Position numbers and translations under genes: made by a program. The notes beneath the pieces are model-generated. The model had not been told where the DNA came from and ran no database searches. It saw only the letters and a program-made list of their open reading frames with translations. This document shows, piece by piece, positions 186 to 20,441 of a DNA stretch of 20,441 bases. Source of the stretch: a virus; IMG/VR virus record IMGVR_UViG_3300044940_000234, positions 1 to 20,441 of that record; one strand, given 5' to 3'. Within the stretch, counting starts at the first letter, position 1; the number at the start of each line of letters is the position of its first letter.

Positions 186-1178
186 TCAACACCCGCCAGC
201 GTCGCCGAACGCATCGGCGATATCGTCGGTGACAGCTGACCACCCGTGCCGCAGGACGGCGGTCAGTTGGGGGCCGTCGAGATGGTACTTGTCGTCGCCA
301 TCCTCGGCGACGACGAACAACCCGTCGTCGTCATGGCCGACGACGAGCCCGGGCGGACTGCCATGCGTGTCCTCGACCATCCGGCCGAGGGCGGCGGTCG
401 CCTCGGCCTCGGTGGAATAGGCCTGGTTGTCGTCGGCCATGGCCGCGACGGCAGCAACCGCGGCGTTGAGCGATGGGTAGGTCTCGGGCCGTCCTTCGAC
501 AGCCCACGCTTCGGCCCAGTATGTGCCGTCGTCGCACGGGGCCAGCCCGCCGTGCAGGATGTCGATCTCCGCGACGGTCGCGTCGCGGATGACGTACCGC
601 GACGCGACGCACCGCATGTCCTCGACGCGGACATCCTGCCACGTCGGCTCGGCGCCGTGATCGGCGGTCTCTGCCGCTTCCGCAATCGCCCACCTGAGGG
701 CGCAGCGGTCGAGAGTGACCCAGCGATCACCCTGCCGCCAGCAGGGGATCAGCCCCCCGCCGTCGCAGTTTTCCCCGCCGCGGATGTCCCATCCGCGGAT
801 GCGGGGCAAGCCTCCGTAGGCTCCGTCGTCGTTGCGCCGCCGCCAACCGCGGCGGCGGTGTTCGGCATCCGGCGGCAGGATGCCGACGAGATGCCATCCA
901 TCGACTCCGATCGGCGCCATGCCCGGCGCCGAGATGCGGAGCGTATAGCTGGGCCATGCGGCCGCGACGTCCTCATCCCAGCACGCCGCCCACGGGGCGG
1001 CATGGGTGCAGGTCACGTCGGCTTCGATGACGCTGACGATACCGGCATCGACCAGCCAGTCGCGCTGGTCGTCGGACAGACGCGGCCATTCGGCCGCGAG
1101 GTCGATGTGCAACAGGGAGATGGCGCGGCGGGCGATGCGGGGGTCGTCGCGGTCGATGATGGCTTTGATAGCGGACAT
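186..1178 (-). CDS. hypothetical protein, 330 aa, early group
   Basis: I do not recognise this protein. The start chosen is the ATG at 1178 (MSAIKAIIDRD), because AAGGAG stands 7 bases upstream; the longer in-frame reading from 1271 has no such support and would run through a hairpin. The protein is acidic overall and rich in Trp and Asp, with no membrane segment. The N-terminal part (residues 1-30) resembles short helical regions; the middle is rich in Trp-Asp/Gly motifs and the C-terminal 130 residues carry many Asp-Asp pairs (for example GHDDDGLFVVAEDGDDKY). It follows the 73-residue gene and is flanked on both sides by stem-loops, so it may be translated independently. Its leader carries ACAAGGA, which resembles a CsrA binding site. 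Confidence 0.7.
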   Translation of the reverse strand: MSAIKAIIDRDDPRIARRAISLLHIDLAAEWPRLSDDQRDWLVDAGIVSVIEADVTCTHAAPWAACWDEDVAAAWPSYTLRISAPGMAPIGVDGWHLVGILPPDAEHRRRGWRRRNDDGAYGGLPRIRGWDIRGGENCDGGGLIPCWRQGDRWVTLDRCALRWAIAEAAETADHGAEPTWQDVRVEDMRCVASRYVIRDATVAEIDILHGGLAPCDDGTYWAEAWAVEGRPETYPSLNAAVAAVAAMADDNQAYSTEAEATAALGRMVEDTHGSPPGLVVGHDDDGLFVVAEDGDDKYHLDGPQLTAVLRHGWSAVTDDIADAFGDAGGC

Positions 1179-1200
1179 GATCAGTCTCCTTGTGTAAAAT

Positions 1201-1221
1201 CCGCCCGCATGTCGCGGGCGG
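1201..1221 (-). terminator. intercistronic stem-loop with short U run
   Basis: CCGCCCGC and GCGGGCGG form a perfect 8-bp stem with a 5-base loop. In the minus-strand direction it is followed directly by ATTTTACAC. It lies between the 73-residue and the 330-residue genes and starts with the same CCCCGCCCGCG string on the minus strand as the hairpin at 1489-1512. It could be a partial terminator or an mRNA processing/stability element. Confidence 0.55.
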
Positions 1222-1230
1222 GGGAGAGTG

Positions 1231-1452
1231 TCAGTTTCCCTCGCGCCATCGCTCGATGGCGCGATCGGCACGGCGGACGGCTCGCCGCGCCTCGCGCGCC
1301 AGTTCGCGGGCGAGCTTCTTGGTCATGTGGATGGCGGCGTCCATCCGCGCGTTCATCCATCCCTCGACAGTCAAGTGGCAGTAGCCGTCCAGATCGGCGG
1401 GCAGATGGCCGCCGAACATGCCGTAGCGGGTGATGTGGAAGCTGGTCCTCAT
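1231..1452 (-). CDS. hypothetical small basic protein, 73 aa
   Basis: Unrecognised. The N-terminal half contains MRTSFHITRYGMFGGHLP and the C-terminal half is a strongly basic helix with many Arg/Ala residues (KKLARELAREARRAVRRAD), suggestive of nucleic-acid or partner binding. The start at 1452 has only a weak upstream GAGG about 10 bases away. It stands alone between two GC-rich stem-loops in the early minus-strand group. Reading on the opposite strand is also open here, as usual at this GC content, but the small size, order and direction agree with its neighbours. Confidence 0.55.
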   Translation of the reverse strand: MRTSFHITRYGMFGGHLPADLDGYCHLTVEGWMNARMDAAIHMTKKLARELAREARRAVRRADRAIERWREGN

Positions 1453-1488
1453 GGTCGAGTACCTCGGTTTGGTGTGAGTGAATGAAAC

Positions 1489-1512
1489 CCCCGCCCGCGC
1501 CCGCGGGCGGGG
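1489..1512 (-). terminator. 10-bp intercistronic stem-loop
   Basis: CCCCGCCCGC pairs perfectly with GCGGGCGGGG around a 4-base loop. On the minus strand it is followed by GTTTCATT. It lies just after the stop of the 178-residue gene and before the 73-residue gene. The very stable stem with a weak U tract fits an intrinsic terminator or a processing hairpin. Confidence 0.6.
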
Positions 1513-1522
1513 AAAAGCAAGC

Positions 1523-2059
1523 TCAGTTGGCGTACCAGATGCCCGCTACTACGCGGACATCCCAGGTGGTCTCGCCACGACGGGTGAACCCGTCGTGGCC
1601 GCCGATGACCCAGCGGCCGGCGAGTCGCAGGCGGTAGCCGCCCTCGACCCGCTCGCCCCACACGGCGTGGTCACCACGCCCATGCCGCGCCCACCCCCGG
1701 CCTCGGGAGAGGCCCTCGTAGTGATGGGCGGGGACAATGATGCCATCCCCAGTTGACACTCGGATAGCCTCGGCGATGGCGCGCAGGTCTTGCGGCGTCG
1801 CGCCGCGGCTCGCAGCCAGTATTAGAGCCCGGCATCGGCCGTCGCCGATCTGCTCGGCAGTGATGCAGGCCATCAGCGAGCGGACGTGGTCCCGGAGCCG
1901 GTTAAGCTCGGCCTCGGCCGCCGCGACGGCGGCCTGGTCGAGGTTTTTTTCGGCCGTCTTCTTTCTGACGACGGCCTCGTCGTACTCCGCGAGCATGGCG
2001 GCAATGGCGGCCGCAGCCTCGACGGGGGTGGCGGGGGTGGCGGGGGTGGGGTTGGTCAT
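1523..2059 (-). CDS. hypothetical protein, 178 aa, first gene of the early group
   Basis: Unrecognised. The start at 2059 is supported by GGAGA 7 bases upstream. Residues 1-15 are a Pro/Thr/Ala-rich tail (MTNPTPATPATP). Residues 15-65 are a predicted helical coiled coil rich in Ala, Glu and Lys. The C-terminal half (about 105-178) has many Gly, Arg and Trp residues (HYEGLSRGRGWARHGRGDHA) and looks like a separate beta-rich part. It is the first gene after the leftward promoter in the divergent control region, so it should be expressed when the neighbouring repressor-like gene allows. A phage early protein is a reasonable guess from position only. Confidence 0.65.
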   Translation of the reverse strand: MTNPTPATPATPVEAAAAIAAMLAEYDEAVVRKKTAEKNLDQAAVAAAEAELNRLRDHVRSLMACITAEQIGDGRCRALILAASRGATPQDLRAIAEAIRVSTGDGIIVPAHHYEGLSRGRGWARHGRGDHAVWGERVEGGYRLRLAGRWVIGGHDGFTRRGETTWDVRVVAGIWYAN

Positions 2060-2070
2060 GGTCTGTCTCC

Positions 2071-2090
2071 GAGTTAGTGGGAGTTAGTGG
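2071..2090 (-). repeat. tandem 10-bp repeat in the leader (GAGTTAGTGG twice)
   Basis: Two identical adjacent copies of GAGTTAGTGG (CCACTAACTC on the minus strand) lie immediately upstream of the ribosome binding site of the 178-residue gene. The core CCACTAACT recurs at 15008-15016 just upstream of the csrA ribosome binding site. Confidence 0.6.
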
Positions 2091-2091
2091 T

Positions 2092-2115
2092 TGAGGGGCT
2101 GTCATCTGCCCCTCA
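2092..2115 (-). promoter_or_regulatory. leader hairpin of the early operon
   Basis: TGAGGGGC pairs with GCCCCTCA around an 8-base loop. The hairpin lies in the untranslated leader between the leftward promoter and the first early gene. It may modulate transcript stability or translation. Confidence 0.5.
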
Positions 2116-2122
2116 CACCCAT

Positions 2123-2150
2123 ATATTATCCCGCCGGGCTAAATTGTCAA
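2123..2150 (-). promoter_or_regulatory. leftward promoter: TTGACA, 16 bp, TAATAT
   Basis: On the minus strand a perfect TTGACA (2150-2145) is followed after 16 bases by TAATAT (2128-2123). The stretch lies in an AT-rich patch that stands out from the GC-rich surroundings and points at the 178-residue gene. The string TAGCCC, 6 bases, ATAATATATG spanning this promoter recurs almost unchanged upstream of csrA. Confidence 0.6.
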
Positions 2151-2163
2151 CAAAAAAAATCTG

Positions 2164-2177
2164 ATTTTTCGAAAAAT
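2164..2177. promoter_or_regulatory. 14-bp palindrome, candidate repressor operator
   Basis: ATTTTTCGAAAAAT is a perfect dyad in the 155-base gap between the divergent early operon and the repressor-like gene. It sits just upstream of the -35 region of the leftward promoter. A perfect AT-rich palindrome is unlikely by chance in this GC-rich window. It is a natural candidate site for the helix-turn-helix protein encoded next to it. Confidence 0.55.
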
Positions 2178-2185
2178 TGTGCCCC

Positions 2186-2203
2186 ACCAGGCTCAGTCCT
2201 GGT
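2186..2203. promoter_or_regulatory. interrupted dyad ACCAGG-N6-CCTGGT, candidate operator
   Basis: Two perfect 6-bp half-sites separated by 6 bases end 11 bases before the start codon of the repressor-like gene. Its position suggests autoregulation. Its sequence differs from the AT-rich dyad at 2164-2177, so the two may bind different proteins. Confidence 0.5.
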
Positions 2204-2214
2204 ACTCTACCACT

Positions 2215-2466
2215 ATGGACACACACACACATGCTGAGATCGCTGCACGTCTGCGGGCAGCGAGGGCGCGTGCCCGACTATCGCAGGCTGCCGCCGGTCA
2301 GATGGCCGGCGGGCTATCCTATGTCACGATGTGCCGATTCGAGAGGGGGCAGCGACTCCCATCGCTCGACACACTGTACACGCTCGCCGACGTGTACGGC
2401 GTGACGATATATGACCTGGTTCCGCCGCGGAGGGTGTTGCCCGATGCGTCCAACGCAAATCATTGA
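2215..2466 (+). CDS. XRE/Cro-C1-type helix-turn-helix regulator, 83 aa
   Basis: A small DNA-binding protein made almost only of one HTH_XRE domain (about residues 8-67). The recognisable pieces are LRAARARARLSQAAAGQMAG for helices 1-2, the recognition helix region SYVTMCRFERGQRLPSLDTL, and LADVYGVTIYDLV, the typical end of the domain. The ATG at 2215 is preferred over an upstream start at 2179 because the latter would place the operator-like dyad inside the coding region and adds residues not typical of the family. There is no clear ribosome binding site, so it may be leaderless or poorly translated. It faces the early minus-strand operon across a control region with two dyads, the layout of a phage immunity switch. 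An (AC)6 run lies right after the start codon. Confidence 0.85.
   Translation: MDTHTHAEIAARLRAARARARLSQAAAGQMAGGLSYVTMCRFERGQRLPSLDTLYTLADVYGVTIYDLVPPRRVLPDASNANH
2219..2230 (+). repeat. (AC)6 dinucleotide run at the start of the regulator gene
   Basis: Six AC units lie directly behind the start codon of the XRE-type gene, within codons 2-6. Gain or loss of one unit would shift the frame and inactivate the protein. The run is short, so slippage rates would be modest. Confidence 0.5.
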
Positions 2467-2513
2467 CGCATATAGACATACGGCTAGAGCGCGACATTGA
2501 CAAAGGAGAAGAG

Positions 2514-3116
2514 ATGAGGAAGGTGTTCACCACCGGGCAGGTGGCCAAAATTTGCAACGCCGCCCCGCGAACCGTCTCGAAATGGTTCGACTCCGGCCGA
2601 CTCAAGGGCTATCGCATCCCGGGCAGCCAAGACCGCCGGATTCCCCGCGAACAACTCATCCGCTTCCTCAAGGAACACGGTATGCCCTTGGGAGAGCTGG
2701 AAGAAGAACAATGGCACAAAATTCTCTTGATCGGCACCGAGAAGTTGTTCAACGACCGGCTCAAGGAACTGTTACCGAAGGAAGACGATTACAAGTTCGA
2801 GCAGGCCAACAGTGGTTTCGAAGCTGGCGTCCTCGCCGTCAGTTCCCACCCGGACACGATCATTATCGATTTGTCATTGGGACGAAGCGAGGCCATCCAA
2901 ATCGCCGCCAATCTCCGCAAAGATAAAGCCTACGCCTCGACACTGATTATTGGTCTGGCTAGCGAGGATGAAGCCGCCCCCGAGCAACTGGCCCAATACG
3001 GTTTCAATGACATTTTCAAGAAGCCGTTTGACCTGGCGCTGCTCGGCGAGAAAATCAAGAACATCGCCGAAGCCAAATGGGGGCGGTCGCACGGCTACCG
3101 CCCCCGGAACGGATGA
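2514..3116 (+). CDS. excisionase/MerR-like DNA-binding domain fused to a receiver domain, 200 aa
   Basis: Start at 2514 (MRKVFTTGQVAKIC), chosen because AAAGGAG stands 5 bases upstream. Residues 3-60 form a winged-helix excisionase/MerR-type domain (TGQVAKICNAAPRTVSKWF, then RIPGSQDRRIPREQLIRFL). After a short linker, residues about 68-190 are a receiver domain. The phosphoacceptor Asp in TIIIDLSLG and the Lys in FKKPF are present, but the acidic pair expected after strand 1 is absent (ILLIGTEK), so it is probably a non-phosphorylated pseudo-receiver. From memory of the family, this exact architecture is strongly conserved in Planctomycetes chromosomes. Its base and codon use is more AT-rich than the surrounding phage genes, which suggests recent capture from a host or that the prophage sits close to host DNA. 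It lies 47 bases behind the XRE gene, same direction. Confidence 0.88.
   Translation: MRKVFTTGQVAKICNAAPRTVSKWFDSGRLKGYRIPGSQDRRIPREQLIRFLKEHGMPLGELEEEQWHKILLIGTEKLFNDRLKELLPKEDDYKFEQANSGFEAGVLAVSSHPDTIIIDLSLGRSEAIQIAANLRKDKAYASTLIIGLASEDEAAPEQLAQYGFNDIFKKPFDLALLGEKIKNIAEAKWGRSHGYRPRNG
3079..3105 (+). terminator. stem-loop at the end of the regulator gene
   Basis: GGGGGCGGT pairs perfectly with ACCGCCCCC around a 9-base loop. The hairpin overlaps the last codons of the gene ending at 3116. It stands where the plus-strand genes meet the convergent minus-strand operon, so a terminator role is logical, but there is no U tract on either strand. Confidence 0.4.
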
Positions 3117-3287
3117 CCACACCCGCTGGGGGGTCGCCCACCCCGGCATCCCTATACCGATCACTACAGACTGACGCCATCCCTGTCGCACACGCAGCGC
3201 CCCACCTCCCGATCGACGATCTCATATCCCAGTGGCTGGGCAGCCGCCTGAGCTAGCCGCAGATGGCCTACGGCCAGACCAGTGGGC
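3117..3287. other. convergent intergenic region
   Basis: This 171-base gap separates the plus-strand regulator from the 3' end of the minus-strand structural operon. On the minus strand one frame is open from inside the glycosyltransferase gene down to a TAG at 3164, with coding-like residues such as LGYEIVDREVGRC, but I find no start codon in it. It may be a gene remnant or a frameshifted tail. Confidence 0.4.
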
Positions 3288-4793
3288 TCACCCCAGCCGA
3301 CGCAGACAGACTGCCTTGTGCTGGTACTCGATCGCCGAGTGCCAGCCGAACTCGACCAGCGGCTCTGCTCGCGGGTCGAGCCCGCGATACCCGCCCAGGT
3401 GCGTGTCGCGGGCGCCGTGCTGATGGCGATCCTGCGTGCAGATGAGCCAGCGCCATCGCCCCGCTGCGATCACCTCCGTCAGCCAGCGCCGCACCAAAGC
3501 GGTCGGCCAGTGGTGCAGCACATCCTTGGCCATCAGCACGGTGGCTGACGGCAATGCACCTACATCCGTGATATCACCGACCTGGGGCGTGTATCGCTCG
3601 CTTGGCCCGCCGATCACCTCAGAGACGCAATCGACCCCCACGATGCGCATGTCGCATCGTTGCGCAATCGCCCGTGCGACACGTCCATCACCGCATCCCG
3701 CATCCACCCCCGTCTGCCAGTCGCCGGCGATCGCCATCGCACTGATGATGCGGATATACTCAGCCGCCTCGCCCTGCGGGTCGCTCCCAGGCCCACTCCC
3801 CCAGCCCCACAGCCCGCATCGGTAGATCTGGCCAAACACATCCGATGGCGATCCGCCGTGATCCAGCACATCAGCTAGTATGTCCCACACCTCGGCCTCG
3901 CGCGGCAGATGGTAGGTGGGGCCGGAATAGCCATGCCGGCCAGGTGGGATGTCGGATACACGCCAGAGCTTGCCCTGGCACCGATGGATGATGACCGGGT
4001 CACCAACAAGGTGGCAAACGAAGGCCGGGTGCTGCCAATCGGCCGGCCCCAGATCATGCCATCGCCAGCCGCCGGCCGAGAGAGACACGCGCCACGTGTC
4101 CTGATCGCCGAACATGTGCGCGAAGTAGTAGTCACTATGCTGGCACATCCAGTCTGCTGTCAGGATCAGCGGCCACGCACGCTCGCGGTCGATCCAGAGC
4201 TGCCCACCCTGGATCTGTGGCACGCCGCCATCACCATCCGGCCAGACCATCGGCCACTTGACGTTGCCCGCGCAATTCGGCAGATCGCGCCAGAAAGCGA
4301 AAGGATGGGATGCGGTCAACGCCTCGAGATGTGCGGTCGGGTTGGCGACACAGTAGGCGTCGGCGTCGAGGTACAGCACACGACGCATGTCGCAGTGCCG
4401 GATGGCGTGCAGCTTGGCCTCCCAGCCACGCAGGATGCGTGGCCGGGTACGCTCGGCGACTGCCAGTGCGCCGACAATCTCGACATCGAGGCCGGCCACA
4501 TCCTCGGGACGCACTGGCTCGGGGTCGGCATCATGCCCGTGCCAGACCTGGATCGGGCCGGCATAGCCCAGCCGACGCAGCAGACGACATCCGACGACCA
4601 CGCCTGGCCAGTAGCGCCCGCCGCCGACGTAGAGTACACCCGACTCGTGCCGGTGGCCGGGATATTCTTCGGCATCGGCCTGCGCGACTACTCGTTCGAG
4701 CGCGTCACGATGCGCTCGGACGACATGCGGGCACGTATGCCAGGTCGAGGCTCGCGTCTGCTCAGGCTCTGGTAGCGGATCGATGATCGACAT
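3288..4793 (-). CDS. glycosyltransferase-methyltransferase fusion, 501 aa
   Basis: Two enzyme domains are visible. Residues about 52-280 look like a nucleotide-sugar glycosyltransferase of the GT-A type: VLYVGGGRYWPGVVVGCRLL at the beginning and a DXD metal/sugar-nucleotide motif in RVLYLDADAYCV (DAD near residue 143). Residues about 328-500 are a class I SAM-dependent methyltransferase, with GWGSGPGSDP as the lead-in found in phage-type methyltransferases, motif I VDAGCGDGR near residue 363, an acidic residue in VGVDCVSEV and a post-I DVLHHW motif. The ATG at 4793 overlaps the previous stop as TGATG. It is the last gene of the structural operon, after the tail proteins. It could glycosylate and methylate a virion surface or host surface polymer; the substrate cannot be read from sequence. 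Confidence 0.82.
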   Translation of the reverse strand: MSIIDPLPEPEQTRASTWHTCPHVVRAHRDALERVVAQADAEEYPGHRHESGVLYVGGGRYWPGVVVGCRLLRRLGYAGPIQVWHGHDADPEPVRPEDVAGLDVEIVGALAVAERTRPRILRGWEAKLHAIRHCDMRRVLYLDADAYCVANPTAHLEALTASHPFAFWRDLPNCAGNVKWPMVWPDGDGGVPQIQGGQLWIDRERAWPLILTADWMCQHSDYYFAHMFGDQDTWRVSLSAGGWRWHDLGPADWQHPAFVCHLVGDPVIIHRCQGKLWRVSDIPPGRHGYSGPTYHLPREAEVWDILADVLDHGGSPSDVFGQIYRCGLWGWGSGPGSDPQGEAAEYIRIISAMAIAGDWQTGVDAGCGDGRVARAIAQRCDMRIVGVDCVSEVIGGPSERYTPQVGDITDVGALPSATVLMAKDVLHHWPTALVRRWLTEVIAAGRWRWLICTQDRHQHGARDTHLGGYRGLDPRAEPLVEFGWHSAIEYQHKAVCLRRLG

Positions 4794-5626
4794 CACTCAC
4801 CGCCTGCGCATGGCATATACATGATCTCGCCTACGAACGTGCCCGATGTCGGCGGCGGCGAACATATGCCTACCGCACACGGATGGATCAGTACCCACAT
4901 CTGACCATTCCACTGCCACGCACAATACCCGGCTGGCGGGGACCCACCGTCACCACTATTCCCGCCACTACTACCACCAGTACTACCACCGCTGGCACTA
5001 CCACCACTACTGCCACCGCTTCCGGACCCGCATACTGGTACCATGACCAGACCAGTGCCAGACTGGTAGTAGATACCAGTCACAGCCCCGGTGTATGGAT
5101 CACGTGTCACACACAGTCTGGCTAAACAATCCGTGCAAGCGACCCCCGAGCTGCCGCCACTGCCAGCGCTGCCAGTACTCCCAGCACTCCCCCCACTCCC
5201 GCTGCCGCTGCCACTCCCGCTGCCACTAGTCTGCGTGTCGCCCATAGGCAGCGTCAGCCACCATCCGCTGGTCGCATCCCACCAGGCTAGCACTGCGGTC
5301 CCAGGCCCGCCCACCGCGACTGGTGCAGCCACGCGCAGACGGCGGATCGGCTGTCGGACGTAGACCCGCCGATCGGTATGGACCCACGCCTCCTCGCCAT
5401 CCGCCTGCCACCACTCGGGCGGGCCGCCGCGTGTCCAACCGCTGGTGAGTAGTACCAGCGTCATCGGCAGCGGCGGCTGAGCGATGAGACGTGTACCCGT
5501 AGCCGACTGGGACACGACCAATTGAGTCGCGCCGCGAATGCGAGTCGCCAATATGCCTTCGGCGACTCGATCGGCTGCCTGCGCCGTGATGGGATCGCCA
5601 CGCCGAGGGCGGTCTGGATAGTGCAT
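4793..5626 (-). CDS. tail-region protein with Gly/Ser linkers and Cys modules, 277 aa
   Basis: Start taken at the ATG at 5626 (MHYPDRPRRGDPITAQAADR), 2 bases after the stop of the preceding gene; a longer in-frame reading would overlap that gene by 100 bases. Residues 1-130 form a compact part rich in Trp and beta-type residues. From about residue 133 there is an extended Gly/Ser linker, a first Cys module (CTDCLARLCVT to MVPVCG), a second long Gly/Ser linker, and a final Cys module (YCAWQWNGQMWVLIHPCAVG). Such flexible linkers between small disulphide- or metal-stabilised modules would suit an exposed tail tip or fibre-like protein. I do not recognise the family. Position between the distal tail protein and the glycosyltransferase supports a virion role. 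Confidence 0.65.
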   Translation of the reverse strand: MHYPDRPRRGDPITAQAADRVAEGILATRIRGATQLVVSQSATGTRLIAQPPLPMTLVLLTSGWTRGGPPEWWQADGEEAWVHTDRRVYVRQPIRRLRVAAPVAVGGPGTAVLAWWDATSGWWLTLPMGDTQTSGSGSGSGSGSGGSAGSTGSAGSGGSSGVACTDCLARLCVTRDPYTGAVTGIYYQSGTGLVMVPVCGSGSGGSSGGSASGGSTGGSSGGNSGDGGSPPAGYCAWQWNGQMWVLIHPCAVGICSPPPTSGTFVGEIMYMPCAGGE

Positions 5627-16838: not shown

Positions 16839-18038
16839 TCATCTCATCTCGGTCATGAGTCGCAGCGCCATCTCGAGCGCGTCTGGGCCGTCGTCGTGCT
16901 CGCCCATCGGCCAGTCTCGGAGCTGGCGGCACATCAGCCGGCCACCGGGTGTGTCGGCGATGCGTAGCTCACGCCGCACGATGGCCGGGCCCAGACGACG
17001 GATGCGGAGCTCCTTCGCCTGCGCGCCGCACTGGATGCCGTACACCGGATATGGTACCTGGCGCTGTCGGGTCAGCTCAGCAACCAGGAGCGACTGGAAC
17101 GCCACGGCCTCGATGCCGATGGCGTGTGGTCGCCAGCGATCGGACAGAGTGAGCGTATCGGCGATGATCTGGTGGGGTGGCCGGCGGGCCAGGTCGGCCT
17201 CGGCCCACAGCAGCCCGTCGCACCAGCCGAGGGCGACGATGGCCGAGTAGTCGCCCCGGTCAGGTCGAGCGCCGAGCGACGGATCGACCGCGATCACTCG
17301 CCGCGTCATGCGCTGCATCGGCATCGTGGCGGACGGCACCATGACCCAGTCGCCCCAATGCTCGGCGGGCCACTCGACGCCCTCCGGATCGCACCACTCG
17401 GCGTCCAGCTCCTGGCGGGCCCACACGCCGGCCAGGTCGCGATAGAGCTGCTGCCGTACCGACTCGGCGAGGAGTGGATTGGCTCTGGTGGTCGCTCGCA
17501 CGACATGGGCGTCGGTCGATTGCGGGCCGAATACACGGTAGGTCCAGTGGCCGGTGCCCTTGGGCGTGGTGGTCACGGCCAGCCACGGGCACTCGCCGCA
17601 GCGCAGGGCGGGCCGGACGATCTGCATCACGTCCTCGTCGATCTGGGCCGCCTCGTCCATCCAGCAGCCGTGCAGATTGAGACCGCGCAATCGGTCAGGC
17701 CGATCGGCCGACCGAAAGCGAATCTCGGAGCGGCCGGGCAGCGTCATCTGCATGCGGCCGGGCTGCTCGACCAGATCCAACCGCATCACACGGGCCACCT
17801 CGCGCAGCGCCGGCCAATCGATGTCCTCCAGCATGGTGTAGGTGGGTGCGATGACAGCATACTGGCCTGGGGTCATAGCCGCGTGCAGGAGGAGGCGGTA
17901 CGCACCCGCCCAGGTCTTGCCCGCTCCTCGACCGGCGATGAGTGCTACCTGGCGTGCGGTACTGGAGGCGTACTCGGCCTGGTGCGGCAGCACGGGCACC
18001 TCGATGCGGATCGGGCGAGGACGGCGGCGTGCGATCAC
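16839..18038 (-). CDS. terminase large subunit, 399 aa
   Basis: The DNA packaging motor. ATPase domain: Walker A IAGRGAGKTWAG (residues 34-45), Walker B GCWMDEAAQ (about 124-132), coupling motif VTTTPKGTGHW (about 155-165). Nuclease domain of RNase H fold: VIAVDPSLGARPDRGDYSAI with Asp252, GIEAVAFQ with Glu310, and HDDGPDALEMALRL with Asp382/383 or Asp386. All motifs are intact. The start is a GTG at 18038 with GAGGAG 8 bases upstream; the stop of the 41-residue microgene overlaps it as GTGA. The length is slightly short of typical 420-500, but complete. Confidence 0.93.
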   Translation of the reverse strand: MIARRRPRPIRIEVPVLPHQAEYASSTARQVALIAGRGAGKTWAGAYRLLLHAAMTPGQYAVIAPTYTMLEDIDWPALREVARVMRLDLVEQPGRMQMTLPGRSEIRFRSADRPDRLRGLNLHGCWMDEAAQIDEDVMQIVRPALRCGECPWLAVTTTPKGTGHWTYRVFGPQSTDAHVVRATTRANPLLAESVRQQLYRDLAGVWARQELDAEWCDPEGVEWPAEHWGDWVMVPSATMPMQRMTRRVIAVDPSLGARPDRGDYSAIVALGWCDGLLWAEADLARRPPHQIIADTLTLSDRWRPHAIGIEAVAFQSLLVAELTRQRQVPYPVYGIQCGAQAKELRIRRLGPAIVRRELRIADTPGGRLMCRQLRDWPMGEHDDGPDALEMALRLMTEMR

Positions 18039-18160
18039 GTCTGCGTCTCCTCGTTGGCCGGGACGCGATCGGCCTTCCTCCCGGCGAACTGCTCCCAGCG
18101 CTGGACAATCACGTCGCAGTAGGGCCGGATGTCGGACAGCTCACGCAGCTCGATCTGCAT
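18035..18160 (-). CDS. 41-aa microgene resembling the tail of DNA methyltransferases
   Basis: The ATG at 18160 begins MQIELRELSDIRPYCDVI, followed by VQRWEQFAGRKADRV, and stops at 18035 overlapping the GTG of the large terminase (GTGA). AGGG stands 8 bases upstream. From memory of the family, the pattern Y-C/V-D-V-x-V-x-R-W-E-x-F-T/A-G-x-x-A is typical for the very C-terminus of phage and planctomycete DNA methyltransferases (ParB-methylase type). Here it stands alone between the two terminase genes. It may be a remnant of a deleted methyltransferase or a functional small protein that couples the terminase genes. Too short for most gene callers. Confidence 0.6.
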   Translation of the reverse strand: MQIELRELSDIRPYCDVIVQRWEQFAGRKADRVPANEETQT

Positions 18161-18173
18161 GCTTAGTACCCTG

Positions 18174-18536
18174 CTACGTACTTCGTTCTGTTGAGTCACC
18201 GGACACGATCACTCTCTGCACATACTCGATGATCGCGCCCTGCTGATCGGTGGGGATCGGGACATCACGCTGCCCGAGGTACTGCTTCCCGAGCCAAATC
18301 GCCATAGCCGGCGACCTGGCGGCCAGGTCCCACTGGACCCGATGAATGCGGTGCCGCATTTTGGCTCGCCCACGCTCCAGCTCGGCCCGGCAGCGGCGCT
18401 CCATCGTGCGCCGATCGAGTCCTACCAGCAGCGCAATATCCGCGTGAGACAGGCCGAGAGCAGCGCCGGCCAGCACCTGGCGCCGCTGCTCGTCGGTGAT
18501 CGGTACTGCTCGCCTGGCCATATGCCCATGGTACAC
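18174..18536 (-). CDS. terminase small subunit-like protein, 120 aa
   Basis: The DNA-recognition subunit of the packaging enzyme by position and pattern. The N-terminal helix-turn-helix is visible in ITDEQRRQVLAGAALGLSHA followed by DIALLVGLDRRTMERRC. The C-terminal piece VQWDLAARSPAMAIWLGKQY, then LGQRD, is the typical end of small terminase proteins (x-A-x-F/W-L-K-x-x-L-G-W/Q-R-D/E). Start used here is the GTG at 18536 with AGGG 6 bases upstream; an ATG at 18521 (MARRAVPITDEQ) would fit the family equally well but lacks a ribosome binding site. It follows the 152-residue gene after 18 bases. Confidence 0.78.
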   Translation of the reverse strand: MYHGHMARRAVPITDEQRRQVLAGAALGLSHADIALLVGLDRRTMERRCRAELERGRAKMRHRIHRVQWDLAARSPAMAIWLGKQYLGQRDVPIPTDQQGAIIEYVQRVIVSGDSTERST

Positions 18537-18554: not shown

Positions 18555-19013
18555 TCAATCGTGTTCGTGCAGTATCGGCTCGATCAGCCGGCGCACCTCG
18601 TCGGGTCTGGCGGCGGCGGCGGCATCGTCTGCTGCTGCACGGCGGCGATCGGCGTCCCGCTGGGTGCGTAGGCGCTGGTCGATGGCTCGCGCGACTGACT
18701 GTGCCAGGGCGGCAGTCAGATCGCTCGCGTAGCGATGGGCGGCGACGGCATGTGGGGCCAGCATGGCTCGGCAGCATGCCTCTGCGTCCTCTACGGTGAG
18801 GCCGTGCTGGCTGATCCAGACCGATATCAGGGCTGCGAGGGGCATGGGTGATTCGAGGCCGACCAGGTGTCGGTGGCATGCCCAGAGAGCAGTGACAGTG
18901 GGTCGCAGGGGCAGTGGCAGCATCCGCAGTGGGTGCTGTGTCAGCTCGGCGAGCGTCTCGTGTGTGAGCGCTACGGGTCGATCGTGCGATGGTGTGTGTG
19001 ATATGTCCTTCAT
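18555..19013 (-). CDS. hypothetical protein upstream of the terminase, 152 aa
   Basis: Unrecognised. Start ATG at 19013 (MKDISHTPSHDRPVALTHET) with a near-perfect AGGAGGAG 7 bases upstream. Residues 20-105 are helical with LRPTVTALWACHRHLVGLES and ISQHGLTVEDAEACCRAMLA, a pattern remotely like phage helicase-loader or replication-inhibitor domains, though I cannot assign it. Residues 105-140 are Arg/Ala/Asp-rich (DQRLRTQRDADRRRAAADDA), probably a charged coiled coil. An in-frame reading continues upstream through the pentanucleotide array, but the ribosome binding site fixes the start here. It is the first gene of the packaging operon downstream of the array. Confidence 0.72.
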   Translation of the reverse strand: MKDISHTPSHDRPVALTHETLAELTQHPLRMLPLPLRPTVTALWACHRHLVGLESPMPLAALISVWISQHGLTVEDAEACCRAMLAPHAVAAHRYASDLTAALAQSVARAIDQRLRTQRDADRRRAAADDAAAAARPDEVRRLIEPILHEHD

Positions 19014-19560
19014 GGTGGGTCTCCTCCTAGCATCGGGGCGCGGCGGGGCGCCTCGCCGCGACTTGCCCCGCCGCGACTTGCCCCGCCGCGCCTGCCGCGC
19101 CTCGCCAAGCCGCGCCGGGCCTCGCCATGCCTCGCCACGCCTGCCGTGCGATGCCGTGCCCCGCCTCGCCTCGCCCCGCCGCGCCCAGCCGCGCCGAGCC
19201 GAGCCTCGCCCGGCCCCGCCACGCCTGCCGTGCGATGCCCTGCCTCGCCTCGCCGGGCCGCGCCGAGCCGTGCCGCGCCAGGCCAAGCCTCGCCGCGCCC
19301 AGCCGTGCCGCGCCTTGCCGCGCCGCGCCTGCCGTGCGATGCCGTGCCCCGCCCCGCCTAGCCATGCCACGCCACGCCGCGCCGTGCCTCGCCTCGCCGC
19401 GCCTTGCCCTGCCCAGCCGCGCCGCGCCTTGCCCTGCCCAGCCACGCCTTGCCGCGCCTCGCCAAGCCGCGCCGAGCCGTGCCGGGCCTCGCCATGCCCC
19501 GCCTCGCCTCGCCGTGCCGGGCCACGCCAAGCCACGCCAAGCCACGCCTGCCGCGCCCTG

Positions 19561-19605
19561 CCACGCCTTGCCGCGCCACGCCTTGCCGCGCCACGCCTTG
19601 CCGCG
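19561..19605. repeat. three exact copies of a 15-bp unit inside the array
   Basis: CCACGCCTTGCCGCG occurs three times in a row (three pentamers per unit). It shows local expansion by slippage or unequal recombination. Confidence 0.85.
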
Positions 19606-19940
19606 CCTGCCGTGCAATGCCGTGCCTCGCCTCGCCAAGCCGCGCCCTGCCTCGCCCCGCCATGCCAGGCCTGCCGTGCCCCGCCTGGCCCTGCCTGGCC
19701 TCGCCGGACCCGGCCATGCCCCGCCCTGCCGGGCCATGCCAAGCCACGCCTGCCGCGCGATGCCGTGCCGGGCCACGCCAAGCCACGCCTGCCGCGCCCT
19801 GCCCCGCCTCGCCTCGCCGTGCCGGGCCACGCCAAGCCACGCCTGCCGTGCGATGCCCTGCCTCGCCCCGCCATGCCGTGCCTCGCCGCGCCATGCCAGG
19901 CCTGCCGTGCGATGCCGGGCCTCGCCTCGCCACGCCTCGC

Positions 19941-20010
19941 CAAGCCGCGCCACGCCCGGCCCTGCCACGCCAAGCCGCGCCACGCCCGGCCCTGCCACGC
20001 CAAGCCGCGC
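19941..20010. repeat. 30-bp tandem duplication inside the array
   Basis: A 30-bp block of six pentamers, beginning CAAGCCGCGCCACGC, is repeated exactly at 19941-19970 and 19971-20000, with the first 10 bases of a third copy at 20001-20010. This indicates recent block duplication. Confidence 0.85.
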
Positions 20011-20253
20011 CGAGCCGTGCCACGCCTTGCCGCGCCCTGCCGTGCCTCGCCGCGCCATGCCAGGCCTGCCGTGCGATGCCGGGCCACGCCAAGCCCCGCC
20101 TGGCCGTGCCCTGCCGCGCCGTGCCTTGCCACGCCGAGCCGGGCCACGCCTGCCGTGCCACGCCTCGCCGAGCCGTGCCACGCCAAGCCTCGCCTGCCGT
20201 GCCGGGCCCAGCCGGGCCCGGCCGTGCCGCGCCCAGCCGTGCCTGCCGTGCAG

Positions 20254-20441
20254 TCACCCTGCCACGACCTGTGCCAGCCGTCTGACCGCGACCTCGATCT
20301 GCGCCACATCGGCACCCGCCTGACGCAGACGATCGATGCTGGCCATGATGCCACGCACCTGCTGCTGGAGCAACGACATCGCTGACGCGATGAGGTCTGG
20401 ATCGCGTGCCACTACGTCGACTCGCTCATACCGAGCAGGCG
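20254..20441 (-). CDS. 3' end of an unknown gene, cut by the right edge
   Basis: One minus-strand frame is open from the edge to a TGA at 20254 and codes for at least 61 residues, including RDPDLIASAMSLLQQQVRGI and DVAQIEVAVRRLAQVVAG at the C-terminus. The amphipathic, Gln/Arg/Ala/Val-rich helices differ sharply from the translations of the array and look like normal coding sequence. No start codon can be chosen because the gene continues beyond the window. It is the gene upstream of the array in the packaging direction. No family recognised. Confidence 0.62.
   Translation of the reverse strand, partial: PARYERVDVVARDPDLIASAMSLLQQQVRGIMASIDRLRQAGADVAQIEVAVRRLAQVVAG

Follow-up and report, generated by a model that had tools for sequence, protein, structure and literature searches.

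A long punctuated GGC-NN array in an uncultivated phage is very probably a guide-RNA array of a VIPR system

The DNA analysed here (the window) spans the whole of a 20,441-base virus record. An array of GCCNN pentanucleotides is located at positions 19036–20252 of the plus strand, where an earlier note, made from the letters alone, had placed one. Its presence is borne out by several counts. The program TRF calls a period-5 array of 240 copies at 19048–20233, and the 33-nt pattern (GCCNN)6GCC has 126 forward matches in the window, compared to 0 for the reversed pattern. The count of unit types proposed in the note, for which the array was split at GCC, gives 205 exact pentamers of the form GCCNN, in which each of the 16 possible NN dinucleotides is present, and 15 interruptions of four nucleotides. 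The minus strand is the coding strand of the flanking genes, and the array there reads (GGC-NN)n. As the note had described, the array is strand-asymmetric, with G-rich sequence in the sense of transcription, and fills the space between a stop codon and the ribosome binding site of the next gene. On the minus strand it starts right after a TGA stop (20254–20256) and ends just before the Shine-Dalgarno sequence of the gene at 18555–19013.

The triplet is constant and all 16 dinucleotides occur, but the two variable bases are not as free as they had been thought to be. On the RNA (minus) strand, G is the first base in about half of the units, and TA is found once. Moreover, the dinucleotides resemble codon positions 1 and 2 in composition and, in one guide, match a conserved motif of a target (see below).

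The interruptions are formed by a unit of four nucleotides, GCCT on the plus strand, which gives GGC-A-GGC in the RNA. The 5′ G of these marks is located at positions 20247, 20198, 20154, 20070, 19906, 19847, 19793, 19754, 19675, 19611, 19552, 19333, 19229, 19145 and 19096 (minus strand), and a variant unit (GGCATCGCAC or close to it) precedes 8 of the 15. The marks split the array into 14 segments of 7–43 units each (19097–20247, minus strand) and a 3′ tail (19036–19096, minus strand). The tail, past the last mark, contains two GGCAAGTCGC units and a strong GC hairpin (fold z of −2.46); as a general feature, the tail hairpin shows no trend across other arrays. Internal duplications are also present in the array.

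The array is unlike both microsatellites and CRISPR, in agreement with the note. With its period of 5, it has none of the identical 20–50-nt repeats with unique spacers of the CRISPR type. A search of Rfam finds nothing above chance, and no hammerhead is found in the part of the window that was searched. A blastn search with the array against phages and plasmids gives no match, and this result is uninformative because low-complexity filtering was on.

The genes next to the array are all on the minus strand. Directly downstream is a gene for a protein of 152 amino acids (18555–19013), followed by a small HTH protein in the terS position (18174–18536) and by the terminase large subunit (16839–18038; PF03237 at 4.7e-16, phrog_2 at 1.2e-34). 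The array is located about 1 kb upstream of terL. On its other side the contig stops 189 nt past the array, cutting a gene of which the C-terminal 61 amino acids remain (20254–20441). A peptide search with this fragment finds no relative.

An array is present at the corresponding position in a close relative (L141), which shares 98% identity with the window across 4.6 kb. In the two arrays the upstream segment is partly shared, the last guides differ, and the 3′ tail is identical. An assembly artefact is unlikely to be the source of the array, judging from this comparison: the position and the tail agree, while part of the units differ. The differences in the guides of two phages that are 98% identical also fit active turnover.

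Such arrays are not confined to these phages. The earlier note had suggested looking for GCCNN arrays in other phages, and a scan of viral contigs with the pattern (GCCNN)8GCC finds at least 120 stretches. Most of these stretches are mosaic arrays in which NN takes many forms, and break units of their own recur in many of them. In comparison, a similar scan of cellular genomes mainly finds microsatellites with uniform units, along with a few mosaic arrays. Four contigs of bacterial genomes (L209, L161, L235 and L238), including an alphaproteobacterial one and a Fibrobacteres metagenome-assembled genome, hold mosaic arrays together with an open reading frame of the Vipr family (described below). 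In five other loci (L026, L044, L093, L114 and L134), the mark GGC-A-GGC is replaced by recurring breaks of the form GAAC, TGCGGT, TGAGGTA, GTTCC, or GGC-T-GGC in the RNA. These alternative break units are likely to be the guide boundaries of other VIPR types.

A literature search on mosaic or pentanucleotide repeats gives one match, the VIPR system (PMC13142463). According to this 2026 preprint, VIPR systems are found in phages and combine a small protein of the RAMP type, Vipr, with vrRNAs in which GGY alternates with NN; few of them have been studied at the bench (PMC13142463). The arrays described here have the same composition. Among the viral arrays, ACC (GGT in the RNA) accounts for 112 of the 239 single-base deviants of the constant triplet, with about 27 expected at equal chances, and the constant triplet is therefore GGY. 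The window array thus consists of tandem GGY/NN pentamers, with a constant GGY and a hypervariable NN.

The protein found with such arrays also points to VIPR. Clustering of the open reading frames near arrays gives one dominant family, V0, with 63 loci, a length of about 211 amino acids, and a median distance of 19.5 nt from the array. Two other families, F4 and F6, are contaminated by translated array sequence and were left out of the interpretation. V0 is encoded on the GGC strand in 59 of 61 cases. The V0 profile matches the Vipr protein of phage SUSP1 in the Protein Data Bank (36pp) with E = 7e-36, and one V0 member alone matches it at 4.3e-32. The AlphaFold model of V0 (pLDDT of 91) matches Cas7-like RAMPs of type III and type VII CRISPR complexes in all 50 of the matches listed. 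By profile and by predicted fold, the protein associated with arrays at the other loci is a homologue of known Vipr with a RAMP fold. As a positive control, the V0 HMM and the GGY/NN scan recover vipr and its flanking runs in phage SUSP1. Among 115 array loci that were collected with the repeat pattern as the sole criterion, a Vipr gene is located within 1.5 kb in 59 and terL within 3 kb in 4. A Vipr-like family, phrog_4652, also has matches in the control genomes of Caulobacter vibrioides and Thermotoga maritima.

Apart from Vipr, three small families are found repeatedly beside arrays (L021–L140): V2, which is similar to phrog_15946, a ParB-like family, and a possible winged-helix family. 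They are probably accessory genes of different VIPR types, and V2 may be one of the VIPR accessory genes vap1–6. Members of V2 match phrog_15946, and at several other loci the gene order is vipr, V2 and then the array. The GGC-A-GGC mark, of which the window has 15, is enriched with V2: it is found at 15 of 20 V2 loci compared to 17 of 68 array loci (Fisher p = 1e-4). When 1844 six-frame segments are compared to the V2 profile, the 61-residue fragment at the contig edge scores best and is in the right C-terminal register, but the match is weak (6.2 bits, E of 0.99), and against phrog_15946 itself the fragment gives no match. The order V2 and then array is likely in this phage as well.

According to the preprint, the guides of VIPR pair with their targets with a skip of one nucleotide, as decoded in experiments on other VIPR systems (PMC13142463). 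The composition of the dinucleotides is compatible with such pairing. Among 50 loci, the sense phase of codon positions 1 and 2 gives the best correlation of the six phases in 32 (about 8 expected), with a pooled r of 0.57, although part of this codon-like composition could come from base-composition preferences of the RNA itself.

Three guides of the window array were scanned for targets, giving one clear target, one suggestive target, and none for the third. The clear case is found in segment 5 (19794–19843, minus strand), which reads GT TT GT CC AC GA GA GG AG GC. Its first eight dinucleotides, GT TT GT CC AC GA GA GG, are present again in segment 10 (19334–19548, minus strand) after a two-unit duplication, and in truncated form in segment 6; segment 10 has 43 units and probably contains several fused guides. 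Decoded with the one-nucleotide skip, these eight dinucleotides have an exact match in 39 viral contigs. In 29 of the 39 the match falls at one motif, G[IV]GK[ST]T...VFVPTE[DE]G, in frame and with the skipped base at the wobble position. A control with a permuted guide gives 4 matches. Two of the 29 target proteins were checked against Pfam, and both are AAA_24 (1e-48 and 9e-48); one target protein checked against PHROGs is a Sak4-like ssDNA annealing protein (phrog_124, 5.5e-43). The assignment of the other 27 is based on the shared motif.

The second guide, AA GC AC TG GC GA TT CT GC, is contained in segment 11 (19230–19329, minus strand) and matches 5 contigs. In 3 of them the match is in frame at CRAKATCAEFLA, with the AKATCAEFLA motif of a DUF2800/PD-(D/E)XK exonuclease. 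The exonuclease is suggestive only as a target, because these three contigs look like copies of one phage. The third guide has 17 scattered matches and no clear target. A comparison of the guides with the window and the relatives analysed, allowing up to 2 mismatches in 9 dinucleotides, gives no match. By sequence, the dinucleotides match target DNA with a skip at the wobble base, clearly so for one guide and suggestively for a second.

One of the target contigs (L293) is from metagenome 3300045902, the same metagenome as a relative of the window with 98% identity in TerL (L144). Another phage contig (L025, 4379–6998) has a vipr gene and an array of its own just behind AAA_24 (Sak4-like) and DUF669 genes, and this AAA_24 gene is matched by the window guide. 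Apparently, one VIPR phage is targeting another in this case.

We conclude that the window array very probably encodes the guide RNAs (vrRNAs) of a VIPR system. Since one of its guides has an exact match, in the register of the codons, to a conserved motif in a DNA-recombination gene of other phages, the array looks like a weapon of phage against phage rather than a packaging site.

The main alternative to a complete system is a VIPR array with no vipr of its own, either as a relic or served in trans by the Vipr of a co-resident phage or the host. This would fit the absence of a vipr gene from the window and from its relatives' records, one of which has 30.5 kb (L145). However, the contig is a fragment that is cut beside the array, the GGC triplet is almost intact across 1.2 kb, and the differences in guides between the 98% identical phages fit active turnover. 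We consider a relic or a trans-served array unlikely.

Two further explanations place the array outside VIPR. The earlier note had listed a packaging or replication site beside terS/terL among possible roles, with the GCC units bound by terminase or a replication protein. Apart from the short distance to terL in the window, which favors such a site, the other loci speak against it: terL is found near far fewer of them than Vipr is (4 and 59 of 115, respectively), and the nearness to terS/terL is therefore a local context. Codon-like NN composition and exact target matches are also not expected of a packaging site, and we regard this explanation as very improbable. Another item of the list, a structural RNA, has come closer to the present reading. 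A GC-rich microsatellite that expanded neutrally, or a coding repeat of low complexity with the frame open on both strands, is given equally little weight. Uniform GCCNN microsatellites are common in GC-rich genomes, long open reading frames traverse the array, and the internal duplications could be expected of such a repeat. On the other hand, GCC is kept while NN takes all 16 values, and the comparison with the 98% identical relative speaks against equal drift of GCC and NN; the preference of triplet deviants for GGT and the Vipr family next to arrays also argue against it. A coding role for the array was also rejected, as other arrays hold TA units, which bring stop codons.

Comparison with known systems places the window array closest to VIPR. 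The binding sites of the RNA-binding protein TRAP are GAG/UAG triplets every 5 nt, with 2-nt spacers, that are bound by an oligomeric protein. There are about 11 repeats in such sites, and the spacer bases hold no target information. The 5-nt triplet spacing and the 2-nt spacers are alike in the window array, whereas the triplet and the protein differ. Class 1 CRISPR-Cas systems are similar in that Vipr is a Cas7-like RAMP by fold, in the multi-guide array, and in the turnover of guides between close relatives. The window array differs from them in having no repeat-spacer structure and no cas genes, and in its non-contiguous pairing. TIGR-Tas shares phage-borne, RNA-guided DNA-targeting arrays with short variable guide parts, but its protein and guide architecture are different as described, and GGY/NN pentamers are not part of the available description (PMC12045711).

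The likeness to VIPR is found in the alternation of GGY and NN, in the array being adjacent to and co-directional with the Vipr family across phages, and in one-nucleotide-skip targets in coding sequences of other phages, with the wobble base unread. There are differences as well. In SUSP1, vrRNAs of about 100 nt each have a tail of their own, while the window array is continuous over 1.2 kb, contains 15 GGC-A-GGC marks and has only one tail; known targets are a satellite or lysogeny regulators, compared to recombination genes here (PMC13142463). In addition, the contig contains no vipr. The preprint mentions 'staggered arrays with overlapping vrRNAs' (PMC13142463), which may be the same form as the punctuated array in the window.

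A mechanism can be proposed that starts from three direct observations, namely the array with its punctuation, the link to Vipr across phages, and the exact in-frame target match. Transcription of the minus strand would yield the array as a series of GGC-NN repeats, together with the genes on either side of it. Processing at the GGC-A-GGC marks would divide this transcript into about 14 guides, and the structured tail would end the array. Vipr, a small Cas7-like RAMP whose gene is presumably off the contig, would grip each GGC and expose the NN, which would pair with target DNA at two bases in three, leaving every third base (the codon wobble position) unread. For at least one guide, the predicted outcome is binding to, and silencing of, the gene for a Sak4-like single-strand-annealing protein in other phages, and in competitors a RecB/Cas4-like exonuclease gene may be bound by the second guide. 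That binding leads to silencing is taken from experiments on other VIPR systems (PMC13142463).

More tentatively, and with somewhat less than even confidence, the window array could be a distinct, multi-guide form of VIPR, in which one long array is punctuated by GGC-A-GGC, has a single tail, and carries guides built on conserved protein motifs (VFVPTEDG of Sak4 and perhaps CRAKATC of the exonuclease), giving a broad-spectrum weapon of phage against phage at the level of motifs. If this is true, one guide would be enough to disable recombination modules across many different competitor phages, because only codon positions 1 and 2 are read.

VIPR is already described, and the window array is a further, long, punctuated member. 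Neither a long punctuated array with one tail nor a Sak4 target is described in the main text of the preprint (PMC13142463). The locus was first noticed from the letters alone, and it contributes an array of 14 segments, found in an uncultivated phage, whose predicted target, a Sak4-like annealing protein, is matched exactly. It also indicates that viral metagenomes hold a large population of similar arrays that can be searched for simply. Two questions become testable: whether the guides are directed at conserved protein motifs, so that many phages are reached together, and how a single long array is divided into guides.

Two observations concern other parts of the phage genome. In the tail-gene region of the window, a protein of 502 amino acids (3288–4796, minus strand) has a methyltransferase domain in its C-terminal part and a sub-threshold mannosyltransferase-like match in its N-terminal part. 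In the close relative L144, about 2.6 kb with two ParB/methyltransferase-like open reading frames (616–3180) is inserted between the terS-position gene and terL, corresponding to positions 18122–18128 of the window. Judged from this insert, the site between the two genes is a cargo hot spot.
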